A stretch of DNA of 39,387 nt from an uncultured Acidobacteriia bacterium (GTDB lineage Bacteria > Acidobacteriota > Terriglobia > Bryobacterales > Bryobacteraceae), in assembly GCA_903882645.1 (NCBI GenBank), contig CAIRXZ010000296.1, forward strand, positions 1 to 39,387, in the 5' to 3' direction. Below are positions 11,235-37,165 of this stretch, piece after piece (positions within the stretch are counted from its first letter, which is position 1; every line of letters starts with the position of its first letter). The notes below the pieces were generated by a model. That model had not been told where the DNA came from. It did not search any database and saw only the letters and a program-made list of their open reading frames with translations. Position numbers and translations under genes: made by a program.

Positions 11235-11912
11235 GTGGGGCAGCCAATCCTGGCTGCCGCCGCCCTTTCAGGCGGCGTCGCTTTTTGCGGCGCTGCACCA
11301 TGGAAACGCCTCCGGGTTCGCCGCGAGGCCGGCCTTTACAGGATTCCACTCGATGTACCGCCGTATGCGCTCGAATTCTCCGTCCCAGACCAGATGGTCG
11401 TAGCTCTCGTCTTGCCAGAACCTACTCCCCGCGGTTCCGAGAATGCGGTTTGCTTCGTGGGCCGTGAAGCCCTTGAGCGGGCCCAGCCAGGATGGGGACG
11501 GCACGGAGGGCGTCGCCAGCAAGTGCACGTGATTGGGCATCACTACGTAGGCGTGCAGCCAGTAGCGCTGAAACTCGGCGTCTCCTGCCCGGATAGCAGC
11601 AGCCACCATACGAGCGACTTCCGGGCGGCGCAGCGCGGACGGTCCGGACCTGGCGGTATCGAGAAGCCGGTCCATGGCGGCAAAGGCCTCTCCGTTGGAG
11701 GTCAGGATATCCGGGCGAAAGCTACGTCCGCGAGGGAGACTGCCATGCAGCCGGAAAGTGACGAAAACAGGGACTCCAGTCACCGAGAAGTGAGGCAGGC
11801 GGCGTTCGCAGTACGCCATACAAGTTATGTGGGAATAGGGACCGAGAGTTCTCAAGAACTTGAGCGTTTGCGCCGCCTGAAAGGCGGCGGCAGCCAGGAT
11901 TGGCTGCCCCAC
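11235..11912. mobile_element. RAYT transposase gene enclosed by 42/43-bp inverted repeats
   Basis: The left repeat (11235-11277) and the right repeat (11871-11912) are reverse complements except for one extra C in the left copy. Each reads, from the outside in, GTGG, hairpin GGCAGCCA-ATCC-TGGCTGCC, then a second hairpin GCCGCC-TTTCA-GGCGGC. Between them on the minus strand lies a RAYT gene. The stop codon of that gene falls inside the left repeat. The 678-bp unit has the form of a RAYT gene with flanking REP sequences facing each other. Confidence 0.85.
11268..11819 (-). CDS. REP-associated tyrosine transposase (RAYT, IS200-like Y1 HUH family)
   Basis: 183 residues from the ATG at 11819. RAYTs are single-copy relatives of IS200/IS605 transposases that cut single-stranded REP hairpins through a tyrosine. 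The HUH motif is clear in YVVMPNHVHLLATP (His97 and His99). It is followed by FWQDESYDHLVWDGEFERI and RRYIEWNPVKAGLA, the family's signature C-terminal block; Tyr140 or Tyr155 would be the nucleophile, which I cannot decide by eye. The frame stays open upstream to 11942, but those residues (VGQPILAAAAFQAAQ) are encoded by the flanking repeat, so I prefer the inner start. The gene seems intact, and its C-terminus ends within the opposite repeat. Confidence 0.88.
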   Translation of the reverse strand: MAYCERRLPHFSVTGVPVFVTFRLHGSLPRGRSFRPDILTSNGEAFAAMDRLLDTARSGPSALRRPEVARMVAAAIRAGDAEFQRYWLHAYVVMPNHVHLLATPSVPSPSWLGPLKGFTAHEANRILGTAGSRFWQDESYDHLVWDGEFERIRRYIEWNPVKAGLAANPEAFPWCSAAKSDAA

Positions 11913-11963
11913 AAGCAGCCCCTTCCGCGACTCCCGGCCCACGCGGACCTAAAGTCGGTTCTT

Positions 11964-21745: not shown

Positions 21746-22159
21746 ATGCCCAAGAAACTGCTCTACATAGGAGCCATCCTTCTTTCCGTAGCGCTGGCCG
21801 CGATGGCCGCCGATGCCATTACCGGCAAGTGGAGGATGGAACAAGAGTTTGGCGGTCAAACCCGCGTGTCGATGTTCGATTTCAAGGCCGATGGGGCCAA
21901 GCTGACCGGTTCGCTCACGCAGCCCGGGTTCGGTCCCCCGGGCGACGCTCCGCCCGCTCCGATCACCACGCCGATCAGCAACGGCAAGGTGGATGGCAAC
22001 AACATTTCCTTCGACGTCACCATGGATTTCGGCGGCAACTCGTTCACAATCAAGTACGAAGCCACCGTGACCGGGAACGACATGAAGCTGAAGCTCACGA
22101 TCCCGAACTTCCAGGGCGGCGATCCCATGGTCATCGACGCGGCCGCCAAGAAGCAGTAA
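21746..22159 (+). CDS. Exported small protein, tandem paralogue 1 of 3
   Basis: 137 residues. Signal peptide [19 protein letters not shown], cleaved before ADAITG. The mature part has four blocks shared with the two next genes: [34 protein letters not shown] and [17 protein letters not shown], ending in AAKKQ. The layout suggests a small beta-sandwich or lipocalin-like fold, but I do not recognise a named domain. The variable middle here is short and Pro-rich ([13 protein letters not shown]). CGAGGTGT stands before the ATG at the same place as in gene 2. Tandem copies of this kind are common in Solibacter-like genomes; the function is unknown. Confidence 0.85.
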
Positions 22160-22233
22160 CGGCGTTTGCGGGCCTGAAATATCGCCACGCCTCGAAGTCT
22201 TTGGGTTATCATGATGCCTGAGGTGTGTTCCCT

Positions 22234-22773
22234 ATGACCAAGAAGTTGCTTTCGGTAGGTGTAGTGCTGCTGCTTGTTGGCGTCGTCGTCGCCTTGGCTG
22301 CCGACGCCGTCACTGGCAAGTGGGTATACGATCAACCGGCGTTCGGCCGGGGCGGTGGTGGAGGCGGAGCCGGCGGCCCTGGCGGAGCTGGCGGAGCCGG
22401 CGGCCCTGGCGGAGCTGGCGGCGCCGGCGGAGCGGGTGGCGCCGCGGCGAGGCCTCCGGTGCAGGTGACGCTCGATCTGAAAGCCGATGGCGCCAAACTG
22501 ACCGGTACGATTCTCCAACCGGCGGGGATGGGCAGGCGCGGCGGCGACGGTGGCGGCGGTACTCCGCCCGCTCCGACCCCAGTGCAGATCTCCAACGGCA
22601 AAGTCGACGGCAATAACATTTCGTTCGAAGTGACGCGCGAGACGCAAATGGGAAGCATGACGACGAAGTACGCGGGCGTGATCAGCGGCAGCGATATGAA
22701 GCTGACGATCACTACTCCCGGCTTCAACGGCGGCGATCCTAGAGTTACGGATGTCGCTGCGAAGAAGCAGTAG
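22234..22773 (+). CDS. Exported small protein with Gly/Ala-rich insert, tandem paralogue 2 of 3
   Basis: 179 residues from the ATG at 22234 (TGAGGTGT lies before it; an ATG 9 bases higher is out of reach of that site). Signal peptide KKLLSVGVVLLLVGVVVALA. It shares [37 protein letters not shown] and MTTKYAGVISGSDMKLTIT with its neighbours. Between the first two blocks it holds an insert of about 40 residues made of GGAGGPGGAGGAGG-type repeats (22346-22450). A second Gly-rich run (GRRGGDGGGGTPPAP) replaces the short linker of paralogue 1. The repeat DNA is a run of near-identical GGCGGAGCTGGC units, prone to length change. Confidence 0.85.
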   Translation: MTKKLLSVGVVLLLVGVVVALAADAVTGKWVYDQPAFGRGGGGGGAGGPGGAGGAGGPGGAGGAGGAGGAAARPPVQVTLDLKADGAKLTGTILQPAGMGRRGGDGGGGTPPAPTPVQISNGKVDGNNISFEVTRETQMGSMTTKYAGVISGSDMKLTITTPGFNGGDPRVTDVAAKKQ

Positions 22774-22804
22774 TTAAGCCGGCGCTCGCGCTGGGTTCAA
22801 TTAC

Positions 22805-22847
22805 AGCGGTTTTCCCCCGCCGGAAGGTGAGGGAAGGCCGCTTTTTT
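22805..22847 (+). terminator. Rho-independent terminator after paralogue 2
   Basis: AGCGGTTTTCCC and GGGAAGGCCGCT form a 12-bp stem with two G-T wobbles around a 14-nt loop, followed by TTTTTT. This is a textbook intrinsic terminator 31 bp after the stop codon. Confidence 0.8.
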
Positions 22848-22919
22848 GTCTGCGGCGGACCTCAAACCGCCGGTTTCGCCGGTAACCTCCAGGCTGAAGG
22901 GGACGCCTGAACAGGTACT

Positions 22920-23339
22920 ATGACCAAAAAGCTGCTTTTTGTAGGTATGACTTTGCTCGTCGTGGCTCTCGTCGCACTGGCGGCGGATGCCATCACCGGC
23001 AAGTGGGTTTATGAAACGCCGGGTCGCGGTGGCGGTGCGCCCAGGCAGACAACTCTGGATCTGAAGGCCGATGGCGCCAAGCTGACCGGCACGGTAACCG
23101 GCGGCGGCGGTATGGGCGGCGGCGGCGGCCAGGCTCCGGCGCCTTCGCAAGTCACCAACGGCAAGGTGGACGGCAGCAACATTTCGTTCGAAGTCACGCG
23201 AGAGACGCCGAACGGAAACATGACGACGAAGTACGAAGGCACGGTGTCCGGCAGCGAGTTGAAGCTGAAAGTCACTCGTACCGGCCAGGATGGCACGCCG
23301 ATGACCACCGAATACGTCGCCAAGAAGGCCACGACCTAG
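22920..23339 (+). CDS. Exported small protein, tandem paralogue 3 of 3
   Basis: 139 residues. Signal peptide KKLLFVGMTLLVVALVALA. It keeps [40 protein letters not shown] and MTTKYEGTVSGSELKLKVT, and is closest to paralogue 2 in the second half (FEVTRET, MTTKY). The Gly-rich insert is reduced to GRGGGAPRQ and GGGGMGGGGGQ. It has its own leader because terminators stand before and after it. Function unknown. Confidence 0.85.
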   Translation: MTKKLLFVGMTLLVVALVALAADAITGKWVYETPGRGGGAPRQTTLDLKADGAKLTGTVTGGGGMGGGGGQAPAPSQVTNGKVDGSNISFEVTRETPNGNMTTKYEGTVSGSELKLKVTRTGQDGTPMTTEYVAKKATT

Positions 23340-34108: not shown

Positions 34109-34197
34109 ACTATAATAGTCGCTAGCGCGTCCGTGGAAGCCGAATCCGAAGGCGGCGCGCGATTCCCGTGCTTTACGGTCAGTTTCGAGGAGGGCAA

Positions 34198-35742
34198 ATG
34201 ACATCCGATCAGAACCGCCGCAAATTCATCGCCACCGCTGCCGGCGCCGCTGCGTTCACCATCGTTCCCAGGCATGTGCTGGGAGGGCAAGGCTTCGTCG
34301 CTCCCAGCGACAAGATCACCCTGGCGCACATCGGGATGGGTACCGAGGGTTTGCGGGAGATGGTGCAACAACTGCTTCCCATGCCGGAGATCCGGATCGT
34401 CGCGGTATGCGACCCCAGCAAGGACGCGGTCGGGTACCGGGATTGGGATAGCGCCGGACTCTTGAACACCATCCGCAGGGCCATCGGGAAGCCGGACTGG
34501 GGCTTCAGCGGGACCATTCCAGGCGGCCGGGACGCCGGCAAGGACATCGTCGAGTCCTACTACGCCAAGGACCAGACCAGCGGTACGTACAAAGGCTGCG
34601 CCGCCTATGCGGATTTCCGGGAACTGCTCGACAAAGAGAAGGACCTCGACGCGGTCAAGATCATGACGCCGGACCATCTCCACGGACTCATCGCCATCGC
34701 CGCCATGAAGAGGGGAAAGCACGTAATCGTGCATAAGCCCATCGCCAACCGCCTGAAAGAAGCCAAGCTGGCGATCGACACCGCGCGGGCCAAGGGCGTG
34801 GCCACGCACTTCATGCCGTGGGACGCCAACGGGTCGATGGACCAGGTGATGGCCTGGATCAAGGACGGTTCCATCGGCGCGCTGCGCGAGATCCACAACT
34901 GCACGAACCGCCCGGTCTGGCCGCAATACGCCACCCTCCCCAACGATACGCCGCCGGTTCCCCCGAATTTCGATTGGAATCTGTGGTTGGGCCCCGAGGC
35001 GGACCGCCCCTACCACCCGAACTACACCCACATGGTGTTCCGCGGCTGGTACGACTTCGGCGGCGGCTCCATGGCCGACATGGGCCACTACAGTCTGTGG
35101 ACCGTGTTCAATGCGCTCGATCTGCAAGGTCCAACCAGTATCGAGCCGATGCTGAGCCACCAGTGCGAACTCCGGGCGGGCGTCTCCACCACCATCGGCA
35201 ACGATTTCTCCTTTCCCACCGCCAGCGTGACCCGCTTCAAGTACCCGGCGCGCGGAAACCGGCCCGCGGTGGATCTTTTCTGGTACGATGGCGGGTTTCA
35301 GCCGCCGTTGCCGGACGAGTTGGAAGAGGACCACCGGCAAATCCCCGCCGAGGCCATGATGTTCGTCGGCGACAAGGGCAAGATCCTGGCGGGCTTCCAC
35401 GTCGAAAACCCGAGGCTGATTCCGGAGCGCAGAATGCAGGGAATCGCCGCTCCGCCGGCGCCCGCCAGACGGGGCCAGGGCGGACAAGGCGGCCAGGGCG
35501 GGCAGGGAGGATCGCCCGGACTTCGCCAATGGGCCGCGGCCTGCAAAGGCGGCCCGCAATCTCCCGGGAGCTTCCTGAACGCCTTCCCGATTTCCGAGGC
35601 CGTCAACCTGTACGCCGTCGCCTTGCGCGCCGGCCGAAGAATCCTGTACGACCCGGAGAACATGAACATCACAAACGTTCCGGCCGCGAATAAATACCTG
35701 TCGCGCGAATACCGGCCGGGCTTCGACCCGGCGACGGTGTAG
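34198..35742 (+). CDS. Tat-exported Gfo/Idh/MocA-family oxidoreductase
   Basis: 514 residues from ATG 34198, with AGGAGG ending 4 bases before it. A twin-arginine signal (NRRKFIATAAGAAAFTIVP) directs the folded NAD(P)-loaded protein out of the cytoplasm. The Rossmann part begins ITLAHIGMGTEGLREMVQQL; the conserved DAVKIMTPDHLHGLIAIAAM, then KRGKHVIVHKPIANRLKEAK holds the family's EKP-like catalytic Lys block, here HKP. The C-terminal domain shows HMVFRGWYDFGGGSMADMGH. A run of GQGGQGG repeats near residue 425 forms a flexible linker. An isolated TATAAT at 34111 may be its -10 box, without a clear -35. A TIM-barrel isomerase follows, a usual partner in Acidobacteriota and Planctomycetota. Confidence 0.9.
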   Translation: MTSDQNRRKFIATAAGAAAFTIVPRHVLGGQGFVAPSDKITLAHIGMGTEGLREMVQQLLPMPEIRIVAVCDPSKDAVGYRDWDSAGLLNTIRRAIGKPDWGFSGTIPGGRDAGKDIVESYYAKDQTSGTYKGCAAYADFRELLDKEKDLDAVKIMTPDHLHGLIAIAAMKRGKHVIVHKPIANRLKEAKLAIDTARAKGVATHFMPWDANGSMDQVMAWIKDGSIGALREIHNCTNRPVWPQYATLPNDTPPVPPNFDWNLWLGPEADRPYHPNYTHMVFRGWYDFGGGSMADMGHYSLWTVFNALDLQGPTSIEPMLSHQCELRAGVSTTIGNDFSFPTASVTRFKYPARGNRPAVDLFWYDGGFQPPLPDELEEDHRQIPAEAMMFVGDKGKILAGFHVENPRLIPERRMQGIAAPPAPARRGQGGQGGQGGQGGSPGLRQWAAACKGGPQSPGSFLNAFPISEAVNLYAVALRAGRRILYDPENMNITNVPAANKYLSREYRPGFDPATV

Positions 35743-35771
35743 GTGGGGCAGGCCTCCCGGCCTGCCTTCTT
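35743..35771 (+). repeat. REP-like palindrome, family A variant with perfect stem, copy 6
   Basis: GTGG, then GGCAGGCC-TCCC-GGCCTGCC, then TTCTT. The 8-bp stem is perfect and compensates both arms against the other family A copies (GGCGGACC/GGTCTGCC), so pairing rather than sequence is kept. It starts at the base after the stop codon of the oxidoreductase gene. Confidence 0.88.
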
Positions 35772-35787
35772 CTTGGAGGACTAAATC

Positions 35788-36633
35788 ATGCGCACAATTT
35801 CCAGACGGCGGTTGCTCGGCGGCGCGGCAGGCGCCGCCGCGGCGGGGTATCTCTCATCCGGCGCGCTGAGAGCCGACCCGCTCGGGATGCCCATCGGGAC
35901 CCAGACCTGGCCGGTCAGAGACCTGATCGTGAAGGATTTCCCCGGCACGCTCAAGATGCTGGCGGACATCGGATGCTGAACCATCGAAATGTGTTCGCCG
36001 CCCGGATACGGGTGGAACAACCTGGTAAGCATGAAGGCCGCGGATGTGAAGAAGACCATCGAGGCCGCCGGGCTGCGCTGCGTAAGCTGCCATTACCAGT
36101 TCCAGGAGCTCAAGCAGAACCTGGACGACAGGATCGCCTACGCCAAGGAACTGGGCCTCACGCAGATGATCCTTTCGACCTTCGGCCTCCCCAACGCCGC
36201 CACCATGTCCGACTGGGCGAAGGCCGCCGGCGAGCTGAACAAGATCGGCGAGCGGACGCGGAAGGCCGGCATTCAGCTCGGCTTCCACAACCACAACTTC
36301 GAATTCCGGGAAATCGACGGCGTGCTCATCTACGATCGCCTGATGACCGAGTTCGATCCGAAGCTGATCAAGATGCAGTTCCAAGTCGCCGTGATCAGTC
36401 TCGGCTACAAAGCCGCGACCTACCTCAGGGAATATCCCGGGCGGTTCATTTCCCTGCACCTCGCCGACTACGCCCCCGCCGAGAAAAAGCAGGTGGCCGT
36501 CGGAAAAGGCGCCGTCGATTGGAAGGATCTGTTCAAAGCCGCCAAGAAGGGCGGCATCAAGAACTACTTCGTCGAAGTCGATCTGGACGCGCTCAAGCAG
36601 AGCATACCCTACTTGCGCGCTCTGAAGGTTTAG
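35788..36633 (+). CDS. Tat-exported sugar isomerase/epimerase-like TIM-barrel protein with in-frame TGA (candidate selenoprotein or nonsense mutant)
   Basis: One frame of 282 codons, broken only by TGA at 35977-35979 (codon 64), preceded by a Cys codon. GGAGG ends 8 bases before the ATG. Tat signal: SRRRLLGGAAGAAAAGYLSS. Then PIGTQTWPVRDLIVKDFPGT, LKMLADIGC, TGA, TIEMCSPPGYGWNNLVSMKA, HYQFQELKQNLDDRIAYAKE, LGFHNHNFEF (metal-ligand region) and GRFISLHLADYAPAEKKQVA up to IKNYFVEVDLDALKQ. This is the xylose-isomerase-like AP endonuclease-2 family without interruption other than the TGA. Homologues normally have GYKxxEMCSPxGY at this point. The hairpin at 35992-36019 fits a bacterial SECIS by distance. 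The other reading is a nonsense change of an Arg or Lys codon (CGA to TGA is one step). No selenocysteine genes lie in this window. Confidence 0.75.
35992..36019 (+). promoter_or_regulatory. Hairpin after the in-frame TGA (SECIS candidate)
   Basis: TGTT (35992-35995) pairs with AACA (36016-36019), a 2-nt bulge CG follows on the 5' side, then CCGCCCG (35998-36004) pairs with CGGGTGG (36009-36015, one G-T) around the loop GATA. The loop starts 26 bases after the TGA and begins with G; bacterial SECIS elements lie within about 40 bases of the TGA with a G near the loop start. It lacks the bulged U and the GU loop of the E. coli fdhF element. It could be a chance by-product of GC-rich coding. Confidence 0.4.
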
Positions 36634-36644
36634 CGCCGGGCGCG

Positions 36645-36666
36645 CGCGGCTCGAGTCTGAGCCGCG
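36645..36666 (+). terminator. Perfect 8-bp hairpin after the TIM-barrel gene
   Basis: CGCGGCTC-GAGTCT-GAGCCGCG, 12 bp after the stop codon at 36633, with no T-tract. The following GCGACCGTAAGGGAGCGG is a sequence I know as a frequent intergenic repeat in Solibacter-like genomes. Confidence 0.5.
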
Positions 36667-36779
36667 ACCGTAAGGGAGCGGTTTGCCGGTGCGTCAGTGA
36701 ATTCCCGAGGAAGTTCACGTGCTGGCGCATGTGCCCGGCGCCATGTGCCAGGCCAACCAGCGACGTGTTCAATCGCCGG

Positions 36780-36799
36780 CAACCGCATCGGAGCGGTTG
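36780..36799 (-). terminator. Hairpin after mazF
   Basis: CAACCGC-ATCGGA-GCGGTTG, a perfect 7-bp stem, 25 bp past the mazF stop on the minus strand. It has no T-tract. The rest of the 190-bp gap 36634-36823 shows no gene. Confidence 0.4.
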
Positions 36800-36823
36800 T
36801 CAATGCTATCTCACGACGAGCCC

Positions 36824-37165
36824 TTAGTACCCGAGCAGCGGCGCCAGCCTGGCGCGTACCTCGTCGATCACGTCGTCTGGGCAGTGCCCGAGTCTTTCGG
36901 CGCGGCGCGCCTTCCAGTCGACGCTCTTTACGTGGTCGGCCAGGATGACGCCGCTGGCGCCATGGCCGGCGGGAACGGCCACTTCGAACGGGTATCCCTT
37001 GGCCTGATTCGTGATAGGGCATGCCAGCGCCAGGCCGGATTTCGCGTTGTATATTCTCGGACTCAGCACCAGCGCTGGGCGCCGCCCTGCCTGCTCGCGG
37101 CCGGCTTGAGGGTCGAACGTCAACCAAACGAAATCGCCGGCCTCCGGTACAAACGCCGCCCTCAC
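36824..37165 (-). CDS. mazF: MazF/PemK-family endoribonuclease toxin
   Basis: 113 residues from the GTG at 37165. The family cleaves RNA at short single-strand motifs. The fold's signature blocks are clear: PEAGDFVWLTFDPQAGREQA, GRRPALVLSPRIYN with the catalytic-type Arg, GLALACPITNQAKGYPFEV with the Ser/Thr position held by Thr, and ILADHVKSVDWKARRAER. Start choice: GTG overlaps the antitoxin stop as GTGA; the longer open frame above it is the antitoxin gene read in another frame. Toxin and antitoxin are thus coupled. Confidence 0.93.
   Translation of the reverse strand: MRAAFVPEAGDFVWLTFDPQAGREQAGRRPALVLSPRIYNAKSGLALACPITNQAKGYPFEVAVPAGHGASGVILADHVKSVDWKARRAERLGHCPDDVIDEVRARLAPLLGY

Follow-up and report, generated by a model that had tools for sequence, protein, structure and literature searches.

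The prediction of bacterial selenoproteins from selenocysteine insertion sequence (SECIS) elements or from homology often yields many false positives, and predicted SECIS-like structures become more numerous with higher GC content, as stated in the available part of the deep-Sep paper (PMC12013277). Selenoproteins and the selenocysteine (Sec) trait as a whole have been lost from some genomes that have sister genomes with them, a pattern described in the available part of Zhang et al. 2006 (PMC1794560). Glycosides, in turn, are cleaved through C3 oxidation and elimination, according to the accessible portion of the report on AtOGE, an O-glycoside beta-eliminase of Agrobacterium tumefaciens (PMC10628242). 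Here we describe a locus that touches on each of these systems, a gene for a xylose-isomerase-like TIM-barrel protein in a contig of an uncultured Acidobacteriia bacterium of the Bryobacteraceae (CAIRXZ010000296.1; the whole stretch analysed, 39,387 nucleotides, is referred to as the window), which is interrupted by an in-frame TGA at codon 64. An earlier note, made from the DNA letters alone, had offered two readings of this codon, a Sec protein and a nonsense change, and had ranked the second somewhat higher. Our analysis supports a nonsense change, or a sequence error in its place, whereas selenocysteine finds no support either in the genome, where no sel genes were found, or in the homologs, which have neither TGA nor Cys at this codon. 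We consider it very probable that the TGA is an unrecoded stop and that the gene, an accessory one, was until recently uninterrupted, when a recent nonsense allele and a consensus error are counted together; a true nonsense allele taken by itself we hold to be probable, with considerable room for doubt.

Translation of the gene gives 281 residues in a frame that is open to its TAG except for the TGA, as had been claimed, and the residues on either side of the TGA align to homologs without loss, again in agreement with the earlier note. A programmed frameshift was rejected, since the gene keeps the frame of its homologs before and after the TGA and calls for no shift. The homolog set comprised 55 loci, which gave 46 distinct coding sequences covering codon 64 at about 46-74% identity. 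This codon encodes Arg in 25 of them, Lys in 10, Gln in 9, Gly in 1 and Glu in 1, so the Lys or Arg that the earlier note named for this position is right for the two commonest residues but leaves out the other three. None of the 46 has TGA or Cys there, and because codon 64 is never Cys, the Cys homolog that usually accompanies a Sec position is missing; this check, proposed together with the selenocysteine reading, turned out against it. At position 63 all 46 homologs have an aromatic residue (Tyr in 35, Phe in 11), and Cys occurs in the window alone. The nearest homolog (L037; 74% identity), from the same-genus genome G002 and cut by a contig end, has Gly at codon 64. None of the 46 distinct sequences read has a stop within the part that aligns; the window gene alone does, and this internal stop stands where the homologs have a sense codon, as in a nonsense-interrupted gene. 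No stop was flagged among the family-search matches whose loci were not fetched, codon 64 itself not being read in these. The TAA codons flagged in the homologs from G247 and G248 (L099, L101) are the normal gene ends, and the homolog from G227 (L111), also flagged for a TAA, reads as an open 285-residue frame. Internal stops are present in distant paralogs of genome G012 (about 31-33% identity).

That codon 64 is read as Sec, forming a Cys-Sec pair with the hairpin behind it as the SECIS, draws some support from the new Cys that adjoins the TGA and from close relatives that possess Sec genes, but we regard this reading as very improbable, for selA, selB, selC and selD went undetected in a genome rated 99.31% complete. 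The search for these genes had been proposed as a check, and its outcome again speaks against selenocysteine. In the window's own genome (G000; 5.27 Mb in 366 contigs, with 0.5% contamination reported), selA gave no match. The selB search gave six matches, the best with 101.9 bits where 242.25 is the cut-off, which we read as IF-2, CysN/C, TypA, LepA, EF-G and Era (L001-L006), and selD gave three matches only, the best with 44.7 bits against a cut-off of 125. With the tRNA-Sec model, for which 150 of 1052 candidates were scored, eight matches were obtained, called by ARAGORN as tRNA-Ser (four), Leu, Tyr, Trp and Gly; two loci that exceed the 47-bit Rfam cut-off (48.2 and 47.7) were rejected, ARAGORN identifying both as tRNA-Ser (anticodons TGA and CGA). 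As a positive control in relatives, selA passed its cut-off in 53 of 60 genomes, selB in 52 of 60 and selD in 18 of 20, a tRNA-Sec match at or above 67 bits (67-81) was found in 33 of 40, and three of the selC loci were read by ARAGORN as tRNA-Sec with anticodon TCA. Within the same genus, G001 and G002 have all four genes, and G003 has selB and selD together with a 53.8-bit selC candidate, its selA search staying below the cut-off. Because the Sec genes of G001 sit on four different contigs (16, 179, 64 and 118), a joint loss of all four from G000 through one assembly gap is unlikely.

From these searches it seems that the window's species has lost the Sec trait, with all four sel genes, while G001 and G002 of the same genus have kept it. 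This resembles the losses in sister genomes described in the available part of Zhang et al. 2006 (PMC1794560), in that G000 has no detectable sel genes and its siblings have them; compared with the cases in that part of the paper, however, the window gene bears no mark of a former selenoprotein, its homologs having sense codons for other residues. A second comparison is offered by selD of the relatives, which was studied by a similar search and, like the window gene, has an in-frame TGA inside an otherwise open gene in all three same-genus genomes; in G001 this TGA is followed by ASKLSPKLLDRVL. In selD, however, the in-frame TGA recurs (8 of the 18 relatives with selD over the cut-off) and the other sel genes are present, and neither is true of the window gene.

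The hairpin after the TGA is as the earlier note drew it. When the bases 3' of the TGA are folded, a lower stem of 4 bp (35992-35995/36016-36019), a 2-base bulge and an upper stem of 7 bp (35998-36004/36009-36015) are formed, and the GATA loop lies at bases 26-29 after the TGA. The distance fits a SECIS. By a generic bacterial rule (loop 16-37 nt after the UGA, a G among the first two bases of the loop, a stem of at least 4 bp), hairpins follow 1707 of 8185 codons (20.9%) in 17 window open reading frames (ORFs), the interrupted gene included. Stems of at least 7 bp follow just 270 of these codons (3.3%), a point on the side of selenocysteine, and a folding at least as stable as that of the TGA hairpin follows 26% of them. 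The 49-nt segment at the TGA folds with -18.7 kcal/mol and a z-score of -2.68 under mononucleotide shuffling. In a 61-nt context the 7-bp stem is kept, the lower pairing is altered, z is -1.49 and 18 of 200 dinucleotide shuffles are equally stable. Among 30 homolog rows folded in the same way as the segment (two of them identical), z ranges from +1.31 to -2.32; three lie at or below -1.9, and these have lower energies than the window (-19.0, -20.1 and -25.6 kcal/mol). The hairpin is real, slightly unusual but common in kind, most likely incidental, and it does not discriminate between the readings. A Cys codon, a TGA and a passable SECIS hairpin are therefore an insufficient sign in a GC-rich genome, in which about one fifth of the window-ORF codons precede a hairpin that meets the rule.

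An AlphaFold2 model of the protein read through the TGA (mean predicted local distance difference test score 89.5) places residues 62-64 between helix 51-61 and strand 65-69, in the alpha1-beta2 loop. In TIM barrels the helix-to-strand loops generally face away from the active site, which counts to some degree against selenocysteine, and on the model the codon-64 site is unlikely to be redox-active. What could still be imagined is that the sel genes are absent from the draft only, and that the gene has newly gained a Cys63-Sec64 pair with a fortuitous SECIS in a non-catalytic loop, for which we see an even slighter chance than for selenocysteine in general; if true, a selenoprotein would have been born without a Cys ancestor at codon 64, in a secreted TIM barrel.

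The age of the stop can be approached through the state of the gene around it. The gene is accessory, with a match at E <= 1e-60 in 72 of 237 family genomes, its own included, and same-genus G001 has no match to it at E <= 0.001. In a leave-one-out comparison of 22 sequences at identities of at least 57%, the window deviates at 1 of 59 columns that are invariant elsewhere, and the 21 others deviate at 0 to 5 of 55-63. Changes at codon positions 1, 2 and 3, with L020 as outgroup, number 13, 11 and 39 on the window branch and 25, 26 and 35 on the L037 branch; with L022 as outgroup the branches are alike (16, 17 and 36 for the window; 19, 16 and 41 for L037). Between the window and L037 the ratio of nonsynonymous to synonymous differences per site (pN/pS) is 0.29, with synonymous sites near saturation, and third-position GC is 0.84 on the 5' side of the TGA and 0.86 on the 3' side, similar to neighbouring genes. 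Neither the invariant columns nor the first and second codon positions show an excess of changes that would indicate relaxed selection. As the gene shows no decay, the stop is either recent or not real.

Several observations weigh against an unrecoded stop in a recently intact gene. The z-score of the TGA hairpin is the lowest of all rows folded, the window and the 30 homolog rows together. In many relatives the selB search lists matches of about 190 bits, which we take to be EF-Tu, and the search of G000 lists none; the assembly therefore misses some genes, and single genes can be absent from it, as its 366 contigs also allow, the missing match probably reflecting a gap in the assembly where a gene is duplicated. 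Furthermore, two odd changes stand side by side (an aromatic residue to Cys at 63, a stop at 64) in a gene that otherwise shows no decay, a pattern not expected from a single random nonsense hit. Two adjacent changes at once are better explained by one mutation of several bases at the spot, or by a miscall, than by two independent hits. An error of consensus or assembly, by which an unbroken gene of the organism would appear with wrong codons at 63 and 64 through a miscall at this spot or through mixed strains in the draft, is a real but clearly less probable part of our reading; the paired anomalies in a gene without other lesions, the fragmentation of the draft and a second gene of the same contig that also looks broken (597-1763) argue for it, whereas the low reported contamination and the general experience that most consensus bases of such assemblies are correct argue against it.

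If the stop is a true nonsense allele, translation would halt after 63 residues, which comprise the leader, strand 1 and helix 1, and because it would end there we infer that no working enzyme is made from the window copy. Other kinds of recoding, namely readthrough of the UGA by a suppressor or near-cognate tRNA or a functional 3' part made by termination and reinitiation at codon 68, are very improbable in our view. An in-frame ATG lies 9 bases past the TGA, and the part 3' of the TGA is still constrained; yet a restart there would, by the model, leave out the leader together with strand 1, helix 1 and the start of strand 2, and could yield a cytoplasmic fragment that is probably inactive. 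No Shine-Dalgarno sequence is obvious by eye in the stretch shown just 5' of this ATG, and a consensus scan of 35600-36900 gave no promoter or terminator. As to a suppressor tRNA, ARAGORN called none of 14 places with a TCA-anticodon pattern a tRNA, although this was one pattern and a divergent tRNA could escape it. Reassignment of UGA is opposed by TGA terminating 8 of 21 window ORFs, which is weak evidence for TGA as a stop; the stop-free state of the other 20 ORFs is uninformative because they were chosen from a list of open frames.

With respect to function, the TIM barrel named in the earlier note is upheld by Pfam PF01261 (51 bits when read through the TGA and 45.4 bits from the restart ORF alone, both above the cut-off of 31.1), by the AlphaFold2 model and by Foldseek matches. 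Sequence profiles match 8tcs, 8tcd, 8tct and 8bvk, and the top Foldseek match overall is 3obe, an epimerase-like protein for which no reaction is given. Judged by profile and predicted fold, the nearest relatives with a solved structure and a named function are the 3-keto-beta-glucopyranoside-1,2-lyases AL1 (PDB 8tcd, 8tcr) and BT1 (8tct), which match the fold over its full length with template modelling scores of 0.74-0.76 by query length, 24-28% identity and Foldseek E-values from 1.5e-16 (8tcd) to 9.5e-16, and by profile with E-values of 8.6e-30 (8tcd) and 2e-27 (8tct); unlike them, the window copy is broken at codon 64. Next comes AtOGE (8bvk; E 7.2e-26 by profile and 2.5e-15 by fold), which by the available part of its description has the same xylose-isomerase-like TIM barrel (PMC10628242); its overlap is shorter (profile 79-269), and the likeness is one of fold and profile. 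The intact enzyme would thus most likely be a 3-keto-glycoside lyase or eliminase, and a twin-arginine-type leader at the gene start, MRTISRRRLLGG, judged by eye, suggests that it is probably exported by the Tat route or secreted. The oxidoreductase encoded upstream scores 289.6 bits with the NCBIfam model BT_2158_fam for glycoside 3-dehydrogenases, under its cut-off of 750 bits, and is likely the partner of the TIM-barrel enzyme. Such a pair of dehydrogenase and lyase fits glycoside cleavage by C3 oxidation and elimination. The features of the locus are collected in Table 1.

Table 1. Features at the interrupted TIM-barrel locus, in window coordinates
Feature	Position	Strand	Basis
Interrupted xylose-isomerase-like TIM-barrel gene, 281 codons plus stop	35788..36633	+	Translation, Pfam, profile and fold matches
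In-frame TGA, codon 64, read as a stop, whether nonsense allele or consensus error	35977..35979	+	Homolog alignment, no sel genes found
Codon 63, Cys (TGC), second oddity adjoining the TGA	35974..35976	+	Homolog alignment
Possible restart ORF of 214 codons that would begin at the in-frame ATG (codon 68), 9 bases 3' of the TGA	35989..36633	+	ORF list
SECIS-like hairpin, 4+7 bp, GATA loop 36005-36008	35992..36019	+	Folding
Gfo/Idh/MocA oxidoreductase related to the glycoside 3-dehydrogenase family, 5' of the TIM-barrel gene	34168..35742	+	Pfam PF01408, PF19051

Some other features of the window are recorded here. A REP-like palindrome (35747-35766) lies directly before the TIM-barrel gene, short repeats are scattered through the window (families D4 and D8; one pair is 98% identical over 50 nt), and the gene at 11268-11942 on the minus strand encodes a weak Y1_Tnp-like protein (20.2 bits against a cut-off of 23), presumably of the REP-associated transposase type. 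In the Abhydrolase_7 gene at 597-1763 on the plus strand the profile is covered just at positions 30-235 of 388, and a plausible C-terminal sequence, DNIFPIAASRASFERVKKVYEVFG, recognized by eye, goes on in another frame at 1372-1635, which suggests that this contig holds either another broken gene or a mistake of assembly. Three small paralogous proteins whose leaders, judged by eye, resemble secretion signals are encoded in tandem at 21746-23339 on the plus strand, and the two of them that were scanned gave no Pfam match at E <= 0.001.

The apparent loss of the sel genes is the more useful by-product of the analysis. A keyword search of the literature returned no paper on Sec loss in Acidobacteriota. 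Since the loss appears to have taken place in a genus that keeps a TGA-containing selD, it may offer a case for asking what becomes of selenoprotein genes after the trait is lost.
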